Source: Accumulibacter sp. (lineage in GTDB: Bacteria; Pseudomonadota; Gammaproteobacteria; Burkholderiales; Rhodocyclaceae). Taken from it: a DNA stretch of 33,822 bases. The DNA lies in the NCBI GenBank assembly GCA_031266435.1, contig JAISAZ010000030.1, forward strand, positions 1 to 33,822, written 5' to 3'. The notes under the pieces are model-generated. The model had not been told where the DNA came from, ran no database searches, and saw nothing but the letters and a program-made list of their open reading frames with translations. Positions 7,363 to 15,646 of the stretch are shown one piece after another. How positions within the stretch are numbered: position 1 is the stretch's first letter; each line of letters starts with the position of its first letter. Position numbers and translations under genes: made by a program.

Positions 7363-7410
7363 ATGGCTTGCCCTATGGTTCTGTACTTTTTCTTTGGATA
7401 CTCAACTTAA
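7363..7410 (+). CDS. Putative leader peptide upstream of the PFOR gene
   Basis: ATG at 7363 follows a strong GGGAGGG ribosome site. It opens a 15-codon frame reading MACPMVLYFFFGYST, whose stop lies one base before the PFOR ATG at 7412. The PFOR gene itself has only a weak GGA far upstream, so its translation probably depends on ribosomes finishing this peptide. I do not know a family for it. A run of three Phe codons between aromatic residues is visible, but no attenuator terminator is. Confidence 0.4.
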   Translation: MACPMVLYFFFGYST

Positions 7411-7411
7411 T

Positions 7412-10400
7412 ATGAAGAAAGCGAAATACCCAGGAATTCCGAGCGTCATCAACGGGAACGGCGCGGTGGCCCACGTCATGCAAAACGTCTGCGGCGGCGT
7501 CATCGGCTATCCGATCACGCCTTCGACCGAAATCGCCGAACTGTACGAAGCCTACCGGGCGGAAGGCGGCGTCAACGTCTGGGGCAAGCACCCGTTCTTC
7601 TTTGAACCCGAAGGCGAACACTCGGCGCAGACCGGCGCGCTCGGCGCGACGCTCCCGGGCGGGCAGTTCATCTCGAACGCCTCGTCGAGCCAGGGGATTC
7701 TGTACGGGATCGAATCGCACTACGTCACGGCCGGGAAAAAACTCGGCGGCTTCGTCCTCCAGGTCGCGGCGCGCGTCGTTTCCAAGCATTCGCTGAACGT
7801 CATGGCGGGTCACGACGACGTTTACTCGCTCCTGCCGGCGGGCTACACGATCCTTTTCGGCTCGAATCCGCAGGAAGCGGCCGACCTCGCCGCGATCGCC
7901 TACCGCGCGTCGTCGCTCTCGATGATCCCGGTCGCAAACGCGATGGACGGGTTTGCGACGAGCCATATGATGTGCGAAACCCTGCTCCCCGAAGCCGAGC
8001 TTTTGCGCGAATACCTCGGCGACCCGTCGAGCCGGATCGCCTCCCCGACGCTCCCGCAGGAAATCCTCTACGGCGCCAAGGGCCGCGTATCCCAGTTGAA
8101 GCAGTATCTGTCGCGCCACCAGGCCGAGATCGACCCTTCCAGGCGCGCGGCGCTGCAAGACTTTCTCGACGCCAACGCCGACAAGGTCGAAAAAGACGCC
8201 GAAGGCAAGCTCCTCCCGAAAACGCAGGACAACCTGCCCGAAGCGCTGCGTCCGCAATGGCGGCGGCAATGGCTGAACGCGCACGAAAAAGGCACGCGCC
8301 AACTCGTTCCCGCCTACGTCGACGTCAATAACCCCGGATTGACCGGGGTCGTCCAGAACCAGCCCGACTTCCAGGCGGGCGCCGCCGACCACCGCGCGCA
8401 CTTCGCCAAGGACGCTCCCGCGCTCATCCGTCAGGCGATGTCCGAATACTCGGCCCTGAGCGGACGCGAGTACGCGCCGGTGCGCGCTTTCATGTGCGAC
8501 GACGCCGAAACGATCATGATCGGCCTGGGTTCGGTGACCGACGACGTCGAAGCCGTCGTGACTTACCTGCGCGGGCAGGGGATGAAAGTCGGCGTCGCGT
8601 CGGTCAAGCTCCTCCAGCCCTTCCCCGAAGCCGAAATCATCGCCGCCATCGAGGGCAAGAAAGCGGTTATGGTTCTCGAACGTTCCGAACAGACGGCGCT
8701 GGCGAGTTTCGTGTCGCAAGCCCTCGTGAAAGCGCGCGAAAACGGCGAGGCGCACGCCGGACACCCGCGCCACGAAGGCATTCCCGCCCTGAAGGCGCTG
8801 CCGCGCGTCACGACGGCGATCTTCGGACTCGGCGGACACGACCTCCAGCCGCGCCACCTGATCGCCGCTTTCAAGGCGATGGAAGACGGAAAGAGCGCGC
8901 CCTTCATCTACCTGGGTTCGCAATTCTTCTCGAACCCCGCGACGCTCTCGCCACGCATGGCCGAGATGCAGAAGCAGTTGAAAAAAGCCTACCCGGAAAC
9001 CGTGAAGATGGCGCTGGAAACCGGCGAGAATCCGAGGCTGCTTCCCGAAAAGGCCTTCCGCATCCGCTTCCACTCGGTCGGCGGTTACGGAACGATCGCG
9101 TCGGGCAAGCTCCTGACCGACATCCTCGCGGGCGCGCTGGAAATGCATTCGAAGTCCGCGCCGAAGTACGGTTCGGAAAAAAGCGGCGCGCCGACGAATT
9201 ACTACATCACCCTGAGTGCGGAACCGATCAAGATCACGAACGCCGAACTCGAAGACGTCGAAGTCGTCATTTCTCCCGACCACCGTGTATTCAGCCACGC
9301 GAACCCCTTGCGTGGGCTTGCCGCAGGCGGGACTTTCATCCTGCAATCGAACGCCGACCCCGAAGACGTTTGGGGACATCTGCCGCAGCACGCGAGAAAA
9401 ACGATCCGCGAGAAGAAGATCAACTTCTTCGTCATCGACGCTTTCGGCGTTGCCAAGCGCCACGCGCCGACCGAAGAGCTTGCGACCCGCATGATGGGCA
9501 TCGCCTTCATCGGCGCCGTCGTCGGCCACGTCGCCCAGGTCTCGGCGGGCGCCTCGGCGGAGGCTGTCCTCGAAAAAGTCCGCAAGCAGATCGCCAAGAA
9601 ATTCGGCGCGAAGGGCGCGACGGTCGTCGACAGCAATATGGAAATCATCCACGAAGGGGTCGAATCGACCCACCGCGTCGATTACACGTCGGCGAACCTC
9701 GCCAAGATCGACGCCAAACCCGCGCCGATCATGCTCCGCAACGTCTCGCTGTCGGCGTCGATGTGCCGGCTGCCCGGCGCCTCGGAGACGGCGGGACTCT
9801 TCGACAACGAATACTTCAACGAAATTCTCGCCGGACCTTTCCGCGACGGGACGATCAGCGAAGCGCCCGCGCTTCCCGGCGCGGGCATGTTCATGCCGCC
9901 GGGCACCGGCGGTCTGAAAGACAAGGGACTTTTCCGCCGCGCCGCGCCGCAATACGACCCCAATCTCTGTACGGCGTGCATGGAATGTACGCTCGTGTGT
10001 CCCGACGCCGCGATCCCCTGCACGGTCCACGAGATTCACGCGCTCCTGCTCCAGGGAATCCGCGCGCTCGAGATTCCCGAAGCGCAACAAGAAGCCCTGC
10101 GCGCGCACGTCTACCCCGTCGCCGAGGCCGTGCGCGAAGCCTACCGCCAAAGCAAGGGCGCGCACGCCTTCCACGAACTCGTCGCCGAAGCCGCGTCGCG
10201 TCTGCCAGCAAGGCAACCCGTCCTGCTGGCGAATTTCACGAAGCTCGTCGACGTCCTGTCGGCGTACCCGGTCGCGCGAACCCGGCCGTTTTTCGACGCC
10301 GAGGAAAAAGCCGCACCCGGCGGCGGCGCGCTCTTCAGCGTGACCGTCGACCCGTGGAAATGCACGGGCTGCCTCGAATGCGTCGACGTTTGCGGTCCCG

Positions 10401-12424
10401 GCGCCTTGAAGCCACGCGACCAGGACGATTCGGTCCTCGAAGCGATGCAGGCACGTTTCGAGTTCATGGCAAACCTCCCCGAAACGCCGGCGCGCTTCAT
10501 CGACCGCGCGCTCGAACACAGCACCGGCGACATCAAGCGCCTTTTCCTCGATCGCCCGAATTACTACGCGGCGACCGGCGGTCACGGCGCCTGCCGGGGT
10601 TGCGGCGAAGTGACGGCGACGCGGATGATTCTTGCGATGAGCCACGCGATCGGCTCGCGCCGCCGCCAAGCGCATATCGAGGAACTCGAAAACCTGACCG
10701 ACGCGCTCAGGGAAAAACAAAAATCGCTTTCGAAAAAAGACGCAAAGCGCTTTGACCATATCGAAAACCTCGCGGCGACGCTCGAAAAACGTCTCTATTT
10801 CTTCGAAGGCGGCCCGACGGGCAACGGCCCCTCCGGGACGATCGTCGCCAATTCGACCGGGTGTAGCAGCGTGTATGCCTCGACGGCGCCTTTCAATCCT
10901 TTCAACACGCCGTGGGTCAACAGCCTCTTCCAGGACGCGCAGCCGCTCGCCAAGGGAATTTTCGAAGGCGTCGCTTCGCAGGTCGCCGCCGACGTTCGCG
11001 CTTTGCGGATCGCGCGCCTCGAACTCGACGACGCCTACGTCCCCGAAAAACACGACGCCGAACTCAAAACGCTCCTGTGGTCGCAATTCACGCTCGACGA
11101 GCTGCGCCTCGTGCCGACGGTACTGACGATCGGCGGCGACGGCGCCTCTTACGACATCGGTTTCGGCGCGCTCTCCCGAATCCTTGCGAGCATGACGCCG
11201 ATCAAGATGCTCATTCTGAATACCGGCGCGTACTCGAATACGGGCGGACAGGCCTCGACATCGAGCTACATCGGTCAGGATTCGGACCTCGCGCGCGTCG
11301 GCGCGGCGTACAGCGGAAAGCGCGAGTCGCGCAAAGAGCTTGGCCTCATCGCGGCCTTCCACTCGAACGTCTTCGTCTGCTCGACCTGCACGTCGCTCCA
11401 GGGGCATTTCCTCAAAAATGCCTTCGAATTCCTGACTTATACCGACGGCGCCGCGCTCTTCGACGTCTACACGCCGTGTCAGGGAGAGCACGGAATCGCC
11501 GACAACGCGTCGGCGCGGCAGGCGAGGCTCGCGGTCGAAAGCCGCATGAGTCCGGCCTTCGTGCACGACCCGCGCCGGGGTAAAAGCATCCACGACTGGT
11601 TCTCGCTCGAAGGGAACCCGGAGCCGAAGAAGGCTTGGGCGTCCTCGAAGCTCGAATACATCGACGGCGACGGAAAGCTCGCATTCCTGACGATCGCCCT
11701 GACGCCGGCGAGCTTCGCGCTCAGCGAAGGCCGCTTCAAGAAGCAGTTCCGCAAACTGCCCGACAGCGCGACCGACGCGGTGCTCATCGAGGAATTCATC
11801 GACCTCGACGACGCGCAACGCCAAGGGAAAACGCCCTTCGTCTATTCGACCGACGACAAGAAGCGTCTCGTCCGCCTCGCGGTCGCCCCGGCGATCGTCG
11901 CGCTCGTCGAAGAGCGCCGCAAGTTCTGGACTCTGCTCCAGTACCTCGACGGTCAGCACGTCTCGAAGATGAGCGCCGAATACAGCGCCGGCGTCGCCGC
12001 GCTCCAGGCGAGCGTCAAGACGCTTCAGGAAGAGCGCGAAACCTCGCTCGACGCGCTCGCGCGCACGATGTCGGAACTCGCCGTTTCGAGTAAAGCCCCG
12101 GCGAACGGGAACTTCATCCCGATCGCGTCGGCGAGCGCTCCGGCGTCCGCGCCGGCGGCGCGGCCAGAGGCGGGAGCGCCCGCTTCGGACGTCAGAGCGG
12201 TCTTCGAGTACGACGAAGCCGACGAGGTCAAATGCACCAATTGCAAGACCTGCTATCAGGACCTTCCCGAACTGTTCGAAAAAACGCGCATCGCCGTCGA
12301 TGGGCAGGCGCGCGAGGTCGCGCACCTGATTCCCGGCGCGCTTTCCCGCGTTGCCCTGACGCCGGAACTCCAGAGCCGCATCCGGCGTGTCGCGGCGAAC
12401 TGCGACGCGGAGATCATTCGATGA
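7412..12424 (+). CDS. nifJ: Pyruvate:ferredoxin oxidoreductase-type 2-oxoacid oxidoreductase with fused C-terminal ferredoxin-like domain
   Basis: A 1670-residue single-chain PFOR, far longer than the usual 1170-1200. It would oxidise pyruvate plus CoA to acetyl-CoA and CO2 and reduce ferredoxin. Domain order: pyrimidine-binding N-domain (GYPITPSTEIAELYEAY; FEPEGEHSAQTGALGA), gamma domain (FHSVGGYGTIASGKLL), ferredoxin clusters C853/C856/C859/C863 and C984/C987/C990/C994, then the thiamine diphosphate domain with CRGC (1061, 1064), NSTGCSSVY, GGDGASYDIG (from 1241) and LNTGAYSNTGGQ. The two clusters are about 130 residues apart, wider than the roughly 50 I recall for NifJ. After the core come about 200 extra residues, an Ala/Pro/Ser linker, and CTNCKTC (1608, 1611, 1614) with a late Cys in AANCDAEIIR, as in single-cluster ferredoxins. 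Pyruvate is inferred as substrate. I start at ATG 7412; an in-frame TTG lies 18 bases upstream. Confidence 0.85.
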   Translation: MKKAKYPGIPSVINGNGAVAHVMQNVCGGVIGYPITPSTEIAELYEAYRAEGGVNVWGKHPFFFEPEGEHSAQTGALGATLPGGQFISNASSSQGILYGIESHYVTAGKKLGGFVLQVAARVVSKHSLNVMAGHDDVYSLLPAGYTILFGSNPQEAADLAAIAYRASSLSMIPVANAMDGFATSHMMCETLLPEAELLREYLGDPSSRIASPTLPQEILYGAKGRVSQLKQYLSRHQAEIDPSRRAALQDFLDANADKVEKDAEGKLLPKTQDNLPEALRPQWRRQWLNAHEKGTRQLVPAYVDVNNPGLTGVVQNQPDFQAGAADHRAHFAKDAPALIRQAMSEYSALSGREYAPVRAFMCDDAETIMIGLGSVTDDVEAVVTYLRGQGMKVGVASVKLLQPFPEAEIIAAIEGKKAVMVLERSEQTALASFVSQALVKARENGEAHAGHPRHEGIPALKALPRVTTAIFGLGGHDLQPRHLIAAFKAMEDGKSAPFIYLGSQFFSNPATLSPRMAEMQKQLKKAYPETVKMALETGENPRLLPEKAFRIRFHSVGGYGTIASGKLLTDILAGALEMHSKSAPKYGSEKSGAPTNYYITLSAEPIKITNAELEDVEVVISPDHRVFSHANPLRGLAAGGTFILQSNADPEDVWGHLPQHARKTIREKKINFFVIDAFGVAKRHAPTEELATRMMGIAFIGAVVGHVAQVSAGASAEAVLEKVRKQIAKKFGAKGATVVDSNMEIIHEGVESTHRVDYTSANLAKIDAKPAPIMLRNVSLSASMCRLPGASETAGLFDNEYFNEILAGPFRDGTISEAPALPGAGMFMPPGTGGLKDKGLFRRAAPQYDPNLCTACMECTLVCPDAAIPCTVHEIHALLLQGIRALEIPEAQQEALRAHVYPVAEAVREAYRQSKGAHAFHELVAEAASRLPARQPVLLANFTKLVDVLSAYPVARTRPFFDAEEKAAPGGGALFSVTVDPWKCTGCLECVDVCGPGALKPRDQDDSVLEAMQARFEFMANLPETPARFIDRALEHSTGDIKRLFLDRPNYYAATGGHGACRGCGEVTATRMILAMSHAIGSRRRQAHIEELENLTDALREKQKSLSKKDAKRFDHIENLAATLEKRLYFFEGGPTGNGPSGTIVANSTGCSSVYASTAPFNPFNTPWVNSLFQDAQPLAKGIFEGVASQVAADVRALRIARLELDDAYVPEKHDAELKTLLWSQFTLDELRLVPTVLTIGGDGASYDIGFGALSRILASMTPIKMLILNTGAYSNTGGQASTSSYIGQDSDLARVGAAYSGKRESRKELGLIAAFHSNVFVCSTCTSLQGHFLKNAFEFLTYTDGAALFDVYTPCQGEHGIADNASARQARLAVESRMSPAFVHDPRRGKSIHDWFSLEGNPEPKKAWASSKLEYIDGDGKLAFLTIALTPASFALSEGRFKKQFRKLPDSATDAVLIEEFIDLDDAQRQGKTPFVYSTDDKKRLVRLAVAPAIVALVEERRKFWTLLQYLDGQHVSKMSAEYSAGVAALQASVKTLQEERETSLDALARTMSELAVSSKAPANGNFIPIASASAPASAPAARPEAGAPASDVRAVFEYDEADEVKCTNCKTCYQDLPELFEKTRIAVDGQAREVAHLIPGALSRVALTPELQSRIRRVAANCDAEIIR

Positions 12425-15267
12425 GCGCGCAAGAATCGCTGTCCAGCGCGCCGCGCGACGCGCTCTCGCGCTATCTCGACGCCGGCGTCGTCCTGAAGGA
12501 CACGCGGACGCAGATCGACGCGCTCGAACAGACCCCGGCGGTCGAGGCTTTCCACAATCAGATGGCGCTCCTGCAGCGCCGCCTGAAGGACAAGCCGCAG
12601 GCTTTCCGCGAACTCTTCATTTCCGACGGCGTGGAGGCCGTCGCGTGGGAGTTCAGGCAAGCCGAACTTGGCGAGGACTTCACCCGGAAGCTCTGGCAAG
12701 CCTTGCTTGACGACGACGATACGAGCAAGCTCTTGATGCGTTTCCTCTGGAGTGTCCCGCTCGGCATGAAGCGCAAGTTCGTCCGCGCGATCGACCGCCA
12801 CCTCTCGGACCGCTACCCGGTCTTGAAAGGCCTGTCGGAAGACTGGCCGGCGACGACTTACATCCCGCCCTTCATCCGCGACCCCGAAGAGCGCTCGCGC
12901 GACTTTGGCCTCGTCAACCAAGGCTATATCGGCTACACGACGCAAGGCTACAGCATGCGCGAAGTCGATCTTTTCGTCTGGCTCGAAGCCATGCGCGACA
13001 AGCAGTGCGAAGACCGCCCCTGCGAACTCGGCCTCAGGATTCCGGGGCGGCCCGACCCGAAGGGCGGCTGTCCGGTCAAGATTCACATCCCGCAAATGCT
13101 CGCGCTCATGGGTTCCGGGCGTTTCCGCGAAGCGATGCAGTTGATCGAGAGCAGCAACCCGCTGCCCAACGTCACCGGGCGCGTCTGTCCGCAGGAACTC
13201 CAGTGCCAGGGCGTCTGTACGCACGCCAAGCGGCCGATCGAAATCGGGCAGATCGAGTGGTTCCTGCCGCAGCGCGAAAAACTCGTCAACCCCGACGCGA
13301 TCGCCGAGCGCTTCGCCGGTTTTCCCGACCCCTGGGCGACGGCGGAAAAACCGCCCGTTGCGATCGTCGGCTCGGGGCCGGCGGGGATGATCAACGCGTA
13401 TTTGCTCGCGGCGGAAGGCTTCCCGGTCGCCGTTTTCGAGTCCTTCCACGCGCTCGGCGGCGTTCTCCGCTACGGCATTCCCGAATTCCGGCTGCCGAAC
13501 GAGCTGATCGACGACGTCGTCCAGAAAATCAAGCTGCTCGGCGGGAAGTTCATCACGAACTTCGTCGTCGGAAAGACGGCGACGATCCAGGACCTGAAAA
13601 ACGCGGGCTTCTGGAAGGTCTTCGTCGGTTCCGGCGCGGGCCTGCCGCGCTTCATGAACGTCCCCGGCGAGCACCTGATCAACGTCATGTCGGCGAACGA
13701 ATTCCTGACGCGCGTCAACCTGATGCAGGGCTTGCGCGAGGATTTTGAGACGCCGCTCCCCGCGACGCGCGGAAAGGAAGTCATCGTCATCGGCGCGGGC
13801 AATACGGCGATGGATTCGGCGCGCACCGCGCGCCGCTTGGGCGCGACGGTGACGATCGTCTATCGCCGGACGCGCGCCGAAATGCCCGTCCGCGTCGAAG
13901 AACTGCACCACGCGATCGAAGAAGGCATCCAGATCAAGGAACTCCGCGCGCCGCGCGAATTCGTCGGCGACGAAAAGACCAACTTCGTGACGCACGCGAT
14001 GCTCGACGTCATGGCGCTCGGCGAACCCGACGCGTCGGGGCGCCGCAGCCCGGACCCGACGGGTCGCGTCGAGCCGATGAAGGTCGACCTCGTCATCATG
14101 GCGCTCGGCAACACGCCGAACCCGATCATCAAGGACTCGGAACCGGGTCTCAAGACAACCCGCGCGGGCAGCATCGCCGTCGATGGGGCGGGATCGCAAA
14201 AAACTTCGCTCGATGGCGTCTATTCGGGCGGCGACGCAGCGCGCGGCGGCGCGACGGCGATCCGCGCGGCGGGCGACGGCCAGGCGGCCGCGCGTGAAAT
14301 CGTCGGCGACCTCGACGTACCGGCGGAACGCATTCGCGGCATGGTGCAAGGCGCGAAGCACTACGCCGAACTCGGCATGGCGCCGCAGCGCATCGTGAAG
14401 AAAGTCGAACTCGCGCAGAATATCGTCGAATACATCGTCGAAGCGCCCCTGATTGCGAAAGCGGCGCGCGCCGGACAATTCGTTCGCGTCCTGCCGTGGC
14501 CGACGGGCGAACTGATCCCGCTGACGCTCGCCGACTGGGACGCCGACGCGGGGACGATCTGCATGGTCGTCCAGTCGATGGGCACGAGTTCGACGCGGAT
14601 CAACCAGATGAAGGTCGGCGACGCCTTCGCCGGAATCGCGGGGCCGCTCGGTCGGCCGAGCGAAGTCCACCGTTACGAAGGCAAGCAGACCGTCGTGTTT
14701 ACCGCAGGGGGCGTCGGCCTGCCGCCGGTCTACCCGATCATGCGCGAGCATCTGCGGGTCGGGAATCACGTCACGCTGATCGCGGGCTTCCGCAGCGCCG
14801 ACCTCCTCTTCTGGACGGGCGACGACGAGCGCGTCGGTCGATTGAAAGCCGAGTTCGGCGACCGGCTCGACATCATCTACACGAGCAACGACGGCACCTT
14901 CGGCGTCAAGGGCTTCGTGACGGGGCCGCTCGAAGCGATGCTCAAGGCCGGCTGCGTCAGCAAGGGGCGCAAACTCGCCGAAGTCGTCACGATCGGCCCG
15001 CCGCTGATGATGCGCGCCGTCAGCGACATGACGAAACCCTACGGCGTAAAGACCGTCGCGAGCCTCAATTCGATCATGGTCGACGCCACGGGGATGTGTG
15101 GCGCGTGCATGGTGCCCGTCGAACTCGAAGGAAAGATGGTCCGCAAGCACGCCTGCGTCGACGGGCCGGAACTCGACTCGCACATCATCGATTGGGACAA
15201 ATTCCTCCCGCGTTTCAACCAGTTCAGGCAGCAGGAACAGGAAAGCAAGGCGCGGAACGGTCTCTGA
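12421..15267 (+). CDS. One-chain NFN-like ferredoxin:NAD(P) oxidoreductase (GltD-like plus FNR-like fusion)
   Basis: A 948-residue fusion whose ATG overlaps the PFOR stop (ATGA). Residues 1 to about 190 match nothing I know. Next is a GltD/NfnB-like part: an altered Fe-S region (C196, C201, C217; then CPQELQCQGVC at 256-266), the FAD motif VGSGPAGM (about 315), LGGVLRYGIPEFRLP, and the NADPH motif VIGAGNTAMDSARTARR (about 457). From about 655 comes an NfnA/FNR-like part: GQFVRVLP, VVFTAGGVGLPPVYPIM, and a [2Fe-2S] site GMCGAC (C893, C896) with HACVDGPE (C912) and a preceding Asp. NFN enzymes couple NADH, NADPH and ferredoxin by flavin bifurcation, normally as two subunits. A plain ferredoxin:NADP oxidoreductase is the alternative. 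The first Fe-S block departs from the CxxCxxxxCxxxC of GltD. Confidence 0.82.
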   Translation: MSAQESLSSAPRDALSRYLDAGVVLKDTRTQIDALEQTPAVEAFHNQMALLQRRLKDKPQAFRELFISDGVEAVAWEFRQAELGEDFTRKLWQALLDDDDTSKLLMRFLWSVPLGMKRKFVRAIDRHLSDRYPVLKGLSEDWPATTYIPPFIRDPEERSRDFGLVNQGYIGYTTQGYSMREVDLFVWLEAMRDKQCEDRPCELGLRIPGRPDPKGGCPVKIHIPQMLALMGSGRFREAMQLIESSNPLPNVTGRVCPQELQCQGVCTHAKRPIEIGQIEWFLPQREKLVNPDAIAERFAGFPDPWATAEKPPVAIVGSGPAGMINAYLLAAEGFPVAVFESFHALGGVLRYGIPEFRLPNELIDDVVQKIKLLGGKFITNFVVGKTATIQDLKNAGFWKVFVGSGAGLPRFMNVPGEHLINVMSANEFLTRVNLMQGLREDFETPLPATRGKEVIVIGAGNTAMDSARTARRLGATVTIVYRRTRAEMPVRVEELHHAIEEGIQIKELRAPREFVGDEKTNFVTHAMLDVMALGEPDASGRRSPDPTGRVEPMKVDLVIMALGNTPNPIIKDSEPGLKTTRAGSIAVDGAGSQKTSLDGVYSGGDAARGGATAIRAAGDGQAAAREIVGDLDVPAERIRGMVQGAKHYAELGMAPQRIVKKVELAQNIVEYIVEAPLIAKAARAGQFVRVLPWPTGELIPLTLADWDADAGTICMVVQSMGTSSTRINQMKVGDAFAGIAGPLGRPSEVHRYEGKQTVVFTAGGVGLPPVYPIMREHLRVGNHVTLIAGFRSADLLFWTGDDERVGRLKAEFGDRLDIIYTSNDGTFGVKGFVTGPLEAMLKAGCVSKGRKLAEVVTIGPPLMMRAVSDMTKPYGVKTVASLNSIMVDATGMCGACMVPVELEGKMVRKHACVDGPELDSHIIDWDKFLPRFNQFRQQEQESKARNGL

Positions 15268-15280
15268 TCTCCGATGCTCC

Positions 15281-15314
15281 GGGCGGAACGGGAAACCGTT
15301 CCGCCCATTTTTTT
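15281..15314 (+). terminator. Intrinsic terminator of the PFOR-NFN operon
   Basis: GGGCGGAACGG (15281-15291) pairs perfectly with CCGTTCCGCCC (15296-15306) around a four-base loop and is followed by A and seven T. It begins 14 bases after the stop of the fusion gene. Confidence 0.9.
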
Positions 15315-15393
15315 GGGCGTCCGTCCCATAGGGGAAAAGGAATGGGGAAAAGGGTGCACACTCACTCTGCGCCAATCCCTCGCTTCAAAGCGA

Positions 15394-15472: not shown

Positions 15473-15646
15473 ATGGATGAGAACACCGTTGATTACCGTT
15501 GCGTCGGCGTCTGCAAGCCCGACGAGGCGGGGCGTTGCGTCGGCTGCGGCCGCCCGATGGACGAGGAGGAATTGAGTTATTTCGCCGCGCTCGCGCCGGT
15601 TCAGGGCGCCGCTACGCCGAAGAGCGACGCCGAACGCGGGTCTTGA
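15473..15646 (+). CDS. DUF1289 family small cysteine-rich protein
   Basis: A 57-residue protein with the DUF1289 pattern: RCVGVCKPDEAGRCVGCGRPMDEEELSYF, four cysteines that probably bind a metal. The function of the family is not established. AGGAG lies seven bases before the chosen ATG. The frame stays open 45 bases further upstream, but those codons sit downstream of the promoter without a ribosome site and do not match the family. The stop is four bases from the end of the convergent priA. Confidence 0.88.
   Translation: MDENTVDYRCVGVCKPDEAGRCVGCGRPMDEEELSYFAALAPVQGAATPKSDAERGS

Follow-up and report, generated by a model that had tools for sequence, protein, structure and literature searches.

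A PFOR with a ferredoxin-like tail and a fused Nfn flavoprotein are encoded as one unit across two phyla

Free ferredoxin is the normal open crossroads of anaerobic metabolism. The locus studied here, in which the gene of a PFOR with a ferredoxin-like tail overlaps a flavoprotein gene, raises the question whether electrons from a 2-oxoacid could be handed on to pyridine nucleotides so that the free ferredoxin pool is bypassed. It lies on a contig of an "Accumulibacter sp." genome, of which the whole stretch of DNA analysed (33,822 nucleotides) is called the window in the following.

Table 1. Coordinates of the PFOR–flavoprotein locus, given as positions of the window
Feature	Position	Strand	Remarks
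PFOR gene	7412..12424	+	1670 aa; thiamine-diphosphate 2-oxoacid oxidoreductase core, two-cluster ferredoxin domain, C-terminal extension, and tail
Two [4Fe-4S] motifs of PFOR (C853, C856, C859, C863 and C984, C987, C990, C994)	9968..10393	+	kept in 60/60
Ala/Pro/Ser-rich PFOR linker, ~residues 1566-1595	12107..12196	+	mean pLDDT 43-49 in three ten-residue blocks
Mono-cluster ferredoxin domain of PFOR (predicted), residues 1596-1670	12197..12421	+	likely ligands C1608, C1611, C1614, C1664
GltD+FNR flavoprotein gene (Pattern C fused Nfn)	12421..15267	+	948 aa
N-terminal helical domain of flavoprotein, ~residues 1-141	12421..12843	+	helices in predicted model; candidate docking part
NfnB/NfnL-like half	12844..14319	+	two [4Fe-4S] clusters, FAD and NADP sites (putative)
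NfnA/NfnS-like half	14380..15264	+	FAD, NAD site, [2Fe-2S] (D888, C893, C896, C912) (putative)
Terminator-like hairpin, predicted intrinsic, closing the two-gene unit	15281..15306	+	11 pairs, 9 G-C, T-rich tail

The two genes and their products

An earlier note on this DNA had described two ATGA-overlapping genes for proteins of 1670 and 948 residues, ended by a terminator. Both frames were indeed read at these places and sizes, with the overlap at 12421-12424, and the terminator has its counterpart in an 11-pair hairpin with ATTTTTTTGG directly 3' of the stem, which is the longest stem among the 13 such sites found in a hairpin scan (10.6 expected). A frameshift or a misjoining of genes was rejected, as both frames are open and relatives have the same two genes. 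The pair stands alone among ordinary core neighbours, namely proC, two genes for T2SSE pilus-type ATPases, a DUF1289 gene, priA, URO-D, htpX, fmt, and dprA; a mobile origin was rejected because of these neighbours and because a viral-contig pattern scan returned 10 stretches, none of which encodes a relative. Right after the operon, a Cys-rich ORF of 57 residues is located at window positions 15473-15646, whose DUF1289 match is slightly below the cut-off. Antisense frames are open opposite both genes (window 7373-12325, minus strand, 1650 residues; 12256-15375, minus strand, 1039 residues), which probably reflects codon use at high GC. The host genome yielded no second match to the window PFOR at E <= 0.001 and no match to the second PFOR kind described below (PFOR2). 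It has an rnfC gene at G000:C99:1001-2302 (L225), and ~4.4 kb past this gene on the same contig there is an FNR/PyrK-like match (G000:C99:6698-7573, L004) with two TGA within the matched stretch.

For the first protein, the earlier note had reported all PFOR motifs, and this reading was borne out: the Pfam domains POR_N, PFOR_II, POR, and Fer4 follow each other in order, and in a set of 60 full-length sequences of this kind (PFOR1; the window and 59 of 88 loci) the 12 Cys of the three PFOR clusters, E69, R121, and N1276 are conserved in 60/60 and T36 in 59/60, with one gap. The roles of these residues are presumed by analogy with canonical PFORs. We regard E69, invariant in the 60 sequences, as the catalytic Glu; position 65 is Glu in 44/60. 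TIGR02176 gives 400 bits against an equivalog cut-off of 911.35, and because this score is far under the cut-off, the window PFOR is placed in the wider family as a divergent form. Canonical complete frames in the phylum sample have 1187-1251 residues from stop to stop, and the window PFOR is 420-480 residues longer. In several drafts the PFOR frame seems to be split or shifted (L189; L062:5023-9962; L068:1-4636; L070:4409-9381), either by faulty assembly or by true loss.

Behind the core, the Ala/Pro/Ser linker and the CTNCKTC with a late Cys that the earlier note had seen were found as described. The motif and the late Cys correspond to residues 1608, 1611, 1614, and 1664, and all four are kept in each of the 86 related loci with a readable tail, that is, in all of the 88 loci but L048, where the PFOR end is too short on the contig, and L116, which has no PFOR on its contig. 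Structure prediction, which the earlier note had proposed as a check, gave a disordered linker and an ordered tail as judged by pLDDT, the latter with a ferredoxin-like predicted fold. Fer4_15 matches 68 of 74 members at E <= 1, and in a fold search with the tail ferredoxins fill the top rows, the nearest solved relatives including Hydrogenobacter thermophilus ferredoxin 1; on these two grounds, a zinc-binding fragment was rejected. The predicted tail thus combines CxxCxxC...C with a ferredoxin fold, as mono-cluster ferredoxins do. Sequence, conservation, and predicted fold support a ferredoxin-like domain, which may bind a cluster.

The flavoprotein reaches 1741.3 bits with NCBIfam NF009415/PRK12779 (cut-off 1519), residues 11-947 aligning to model positions 8-942 of 944, and with this membership the idea of a new kind of protein was rejected. 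Its a-FAD, NAD, and [2Fe-2S] domains are C-terminal and it has ~200 extra residues, which is the Pattern C arrangement. The earlier note had pointed out that Nfn normally consists of two subunits; the one-chain fusion stands, its newness does not, as it is already PRK12779 and Pattern C. In the sections available of the paper that describes this pattern, the fused Nfn is uncharacterised, occurs in Actinobacteria and Proteobacteria, and exceeds Pattern B by ~200 residues (Liang et al. 2019, PMC6405883). As far as this text was available, PFOR occurs once in its main part, in the gene-arrangement legend of Figure 2, and so the adjacency of PFOR and Nfn may already be drawn there. The available part of PMC6085437 places a Mobiluncus Pattern C member as the earliest branch of one Nfn tree, which PMC6405883 repeats.

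The NfnB and NfnA signatures that the earlier note had noticed on one chain were recovered by profile and by predicted fold. In the fold search, residues 654-948 match NfnS, and the NfnL match begins at residue 142, residues 1-141 being barely covered; residues 1-210 gave no Pfam match at E <= 10. Structure prediction of the flavoprotein, also proposed there, likewise shows one chain folding as NfnL plus NfnS. Putative ligands of the NfnB/NfnL-like half are D193, C196, C201, and C266 as well as C217, C256, C262, and E279, a split between two [4Fe-4S] clusters that we assume by analogy. This half has GRVCPQExQCx3C...Gx2E with the Glu ligand, an FAD site of the bifurcating type with R357, and an NADP site with R482 and R483. 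E279 aligns to E126 of Pyrococcus furiosus Nfn, and from the alignment we take R357 to be the Nfn N5 Arg (R201 in P. furiosus). In the NfnA/NfnS-like half, the [2Fe-2S] site GMCGAC, also seen before, belongs to the Asp-ligated motif DGTGMCGxCRx10CV, from which the window sequence DATGMCGACM is two letters off, with 15 instead of 11 residues before the last Cys. E279, R357, R482, R483, D888, C893, C896, and C912 are all invariant in 89/89 Pattern C chains. The ferredoxin-facing motif of NfnB, RCx2Cx4Cx3CPV, was not found in this form. The window has RDx2Cx4Cx15CPV, and RDx2Cx4Cx(14-19)CPV is present in 89/89 Pattern C chains, so that the first Cys of this cluster motif is Asp (D193) in each of them; two chains of the Pattern B order (L014, L015) have RC. 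With the conserved Nfn motifs, a coupled reaction of the flavoprotein with NAD(H), NADP(H), and ferredoxin would be likely.

Occurrence of the gene pair in other genomes

When genome contigs were scanned with the flavoprotein, 296 relatives came up, the best 80 of which were examined. In 79 of these 80 loci a PFOR gene is located directly upstream on the same strand, the aligned ends being -15 to +240 nt apart; the one without an adjacent PFOR, L116 from Ca. Thiosymbion, has its PFOR on another contig. The pair was also present in 8/8 genomes of one further genus, and 58 of the 78 loci measured have an ATGA where the PFOR ends. The best 80 of the 296 belong to Pseudomonadota (among them Rhodopseudomonas, Rhodoplanes, Rhodopila, Blastochloris, Propionivibrio, Rhodoferax, Paludibacterium, and Chromatiaceae) and Actinomycetota (among them Cellulomonas, Actinotalea, Tetrasphaera, and Micropruina), and the closest relative among them is the "Accumulibacter sp." MAG Gx485_bin129, whose flavoprotein is 97% identical. 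The search for the same pair in other genomes, also put forward in the earlier note, was therefore positive in two phyla, throughout which the PFOR and Pattern C genes behave as one unit.

Genome samples gave a similar picture. Among 299 genomes of a phylum sample, Pattern C above the cut-off and a full-length PFOR1 occur in the same nine genomes, and the only other PFOR match at E <= 1e-100, in G270, is of the sister type. At E <= 1e-150, 12 of 199 genomes of the window's family, probably Rhodocyclaceae, have PFOR1 and 11 have Pattern C, the latter scoring above the cut-off in 9; in the twelfth PFOR1 genome (G360, L151) the Pattern C gene is cut shortly after its start by the contig edge. These family counts are not independent of the best 80 loci, since, e.g., G457 is L061, G349 is L062, and G440 is L070. 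In 246 genomes from the phylum of Actinotalea lenta (G299, L077), PFOR1 was detected at E <= 1e-60 in one, the centre itself, so that the pair looks rare in this phylum, though several actinomycetes have it. With regard to regulation, an FNR/Anr box with at most one mismatch was found upstream of PFOR1 in 7 of 58 loci, compared to 0.9% of shuffles, the seven being near-copies of a few lineages. These boxes lie ~190-285 nt upstream (L050, L053, L057, L059, L071, L089, L094), and none was found upstream of PFOR1 in the window.

A second tailed PFOR in rnf operons

A second long PFOR (PFOR2), 34-44% identical, was counted by hand in 36 of the 199 family genomes, and three genomes have both kinds. 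The flanks of PFOR2 were read in 21 of the 36 genomes (L135:6331-16635; L180-L198; L061:6541-16159; the contigs of L180 and L181 end shortly past rnfC), and in 21/21 the gene is located between rnfB and rnfC. In L135, the NCBIfam models for rnfB, C, D, E, and A score above a cut-off and rnfG below it. A tail of the mono-cluster type, different in sequence, stands at the end of 20/20 intact PFOR2 frames, L189 with its broken PFOR2 frame being left out. In a peat MAG (L061:1-16161) the PFOR1–Nfn pair is directly followed by rnfB-PFOR2-rnfCDGE, and thus both electron exits are encoded side by side. A quick tree of 34 rows, which left out L077 and L085 because their frames fall outside the motif filter, resolved PFOR1, PFOR2, and canonical PFORs as three separate clades, with a long-branch warning for the separation of canonical from tailed forms. 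In the available parts of two papers on Rnf (PMC12174285, PMC4014512), a PFOR between rnfB and rnfC is not mentioned.

Electron path, alternatives, and known systems

Domains, fold predictions, ligand conservation, and gene pairing were computed for the pair, and from them we infer physical contact of the two proteins, the substrate, a cluster in the tail, the order of electron transfer, confurcation, and the direction of the reaction. The reading that we favour, and regard as reasonably probable, is a closed line along which the electrons of a 2-oxoacid, most probably pyruvate, are passed to pyridine nucleotides, with probable confurcation by Nfn. The PFOR core would convert pyruvate to acetyl-CoA and CO2 and pass on two electrons singly via its three [4Fe-4S] clusters. 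The tail ferredoxin would take single electrons from the last PFOR cluster and swing across to the flavoprotein's N-terminal clusters. From the D193/C196/C201/C266 cluster the electrons may run via the Glu-ligated cluster to the FAD at the NADP site; exchange of electrons with NAD(H) would fall to the C-terminal half of the flavoprotein. The net reaction would then probably be pyruvate + CoA + NADH + 2 NADP+ -> acetyl-CoA + CO2 + NAD+ + 2 NADPH, and the line may also work in the opposite direction, making pyruvate with NADPH as the driving reductant. The earlier note had proposed that electrons go from pyruvate to NAD(P)H on a dedicated line whose carrier is built in, and with the ferredoxin-like tail, the one-chain Nfn, and the fixed pair this is still the best reading, in which contact of the two proteins, cluster binding by the tail, pyruvate as the substrate, and bifurcation are presumed. 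It gains weight from the sister clade, whose tailed PFOR is encoded within an rnf operon.

Nfn confurcation is the likelier mode, since the remaining Nfn signatures tested are conserved; because of Asp193, the main rival is a simple, non-bifurcating pyruvate:NAD(P)+ oxidoreductase, in which electrons would pass from the tail through the flavoprotein to NADP+ or NAD+ uncoupled and the two nucleotide sites would mean a choice of acceptor. The replacement of Cys by Asp in the ferredoxin-facing motif of all 89 chains would be expected to shift the cluster potential, and there are functional parallels in the pyruvate:NADP+ oxidoreductase of Euglena and in phenylglyoxylate dehydrogenase, which forms NADH; models of the latter match the window PFOR far below their cut-offs. 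However, no variation is seen in the Glu ligand, the N5 Arg, or the Asp-ligated [2Fe-2S] motif, which would not be expected if coupling had been lost; in P. furiosus Nfn, a change of the Glu ligand to Cys led to an uncoupled enzyme according to the part of that work available. We therefore consider uncoupled reduction rather unlikely.

Alternatively, the pair may run in reverse as an NADPH-driven pyruvate synthase, with Nfn bifurcating NADPH to NAD+ and the tail ferredoxin and acetyl-CoA being carboxylated for acetate or CO2 assimilation. Purple non-sulfur bacteria, Chromatiaceae, and Accumulibacter-like bacteria are among the hosts, the tail has a near relative in ferredoxin 1 of H. thermophilus, an organism that makes pyruvate reductively, and the host genome also encodes a pyruvate dehydrogenase E1 (aceE), by which oxidation is already covered. 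On the other side, the pair also occurs in fermenting Actinomycetota (e.g., Cellulomonas, Actinotalea, and Tetrasphaera), in which oxidation would be more natural, and direction is not readable from sequence, so that we rate reverse use as improbable. A merely coincidental co-transcription, in which PFOR reduces soluble ferredoxins, the Pattern C enzyme draws on the common pool, and the tail only eases electron exit, would suit a host that encodes Rnf (rnfC) as another probable ferredoxin user, and the complex of the two proteins is itself a deduction, but the strict pairing over two phyla with both genes in the same genomes, the ATGA at the PFOR stop, and the changed ligand at the presumed ferredoxin-meeting face make it highly improbable.

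If the closed line from 2-oxoacid to pyridine nucleotides is correct, low-potential electrons would be steered to one chosen product by a PFOR that has its own ferredoxin and is tied to a single NAD(P) reductase, and in facultative bacteria they might be protected from oxygen. The uncharacterised Pattern C Nfn would in that case have a probable physiological electron donor, one open to direct assay. Taking both kinds together, we tentatively suggest, at somewhat less than even chances, that tailed PFORs form a self-wired class with two NAD(P) exits, either Nfn (soluble, with NADPH-forming confurcation) or the ion-pumping Rnf (NADH and an ion gradient), by which the free ferredoxin pool is bypassed. 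This two-exit reading, if true, would provide a pyruvate-confurcating enzyme and a PFOR–Rnf supercomplex, each the first of its kind known to us. The parts of the pair are of known kinds, and absent from the earlier note are the fixed pairing, the Asp, and PFOR2 in rnf operons. In the open-licence literature searched, as far as its texts were available, nothing was found on a tailed PFOR, a fixed Pattern C pairing, the Asp, or a PFOR in rnf operons, nor on the biochemistry of the PFOR–Pattern C pair. The available part of PMC12225005 reports a PFOR upregulated in R. palustris, which may or may not be the Nfn-paired one.

With canonical homodimeric PFOR/NifJ (1b0p, 6cin; TIGR02176), the window PFOR shares the domain order, the three [4Fe-4S] clusters, and the active-site residues, but it has long C-terminal helices, a linker, and the ferredoxin tail, and belongs to a separate clade. 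The flavoprotein is like NfnAB/NfnSL of Thermotoga maritima and P. furiosus (4ylf, 5jca, 5jfc) in both folds, in the FAD, NADP, and [2Fe-2S] signatures, and in the Glu-ligated cluster, but it is fused with the NfnB half first, has an extra N-terminal helical domain, and carries Asp for the first Cys of RCx2Cx4C, with 14-19 instead of 3 residues before CPV in Pattern C. It is of the same class as Pattern C in Liang et al. 2019 (PMC6405883), where a PFOR partner, a tail, or the Asp is not discussed in the sections available. PFOR2 is 38.4% identical to the window PFOR over 1514 aligned residues and has the same extension and a mono-cluster tail, whereas its place between rnfB and rnfC points to the Rnf complex as partner instead of Nfn. 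The Euglena pyruvate:NADP+ oxidoreductase also joins PFOR chemistry directly to NADP reduction, but there PFOR is fused to a P450-reductase-like flavoprotein, not to Nfn, and is not known to have a ferredoxin tail. Finally, the tail resembles mono-cluster ferredoxins (H. thermophilus Fd1, 7m1n/7m1o; P. furiosus, 1siz; R. palustris, 4id8 and 4ov1) in predicted fold and Cys spacing; whereas these are free small proteins, the window tail is covalently tethered to its PFOR.
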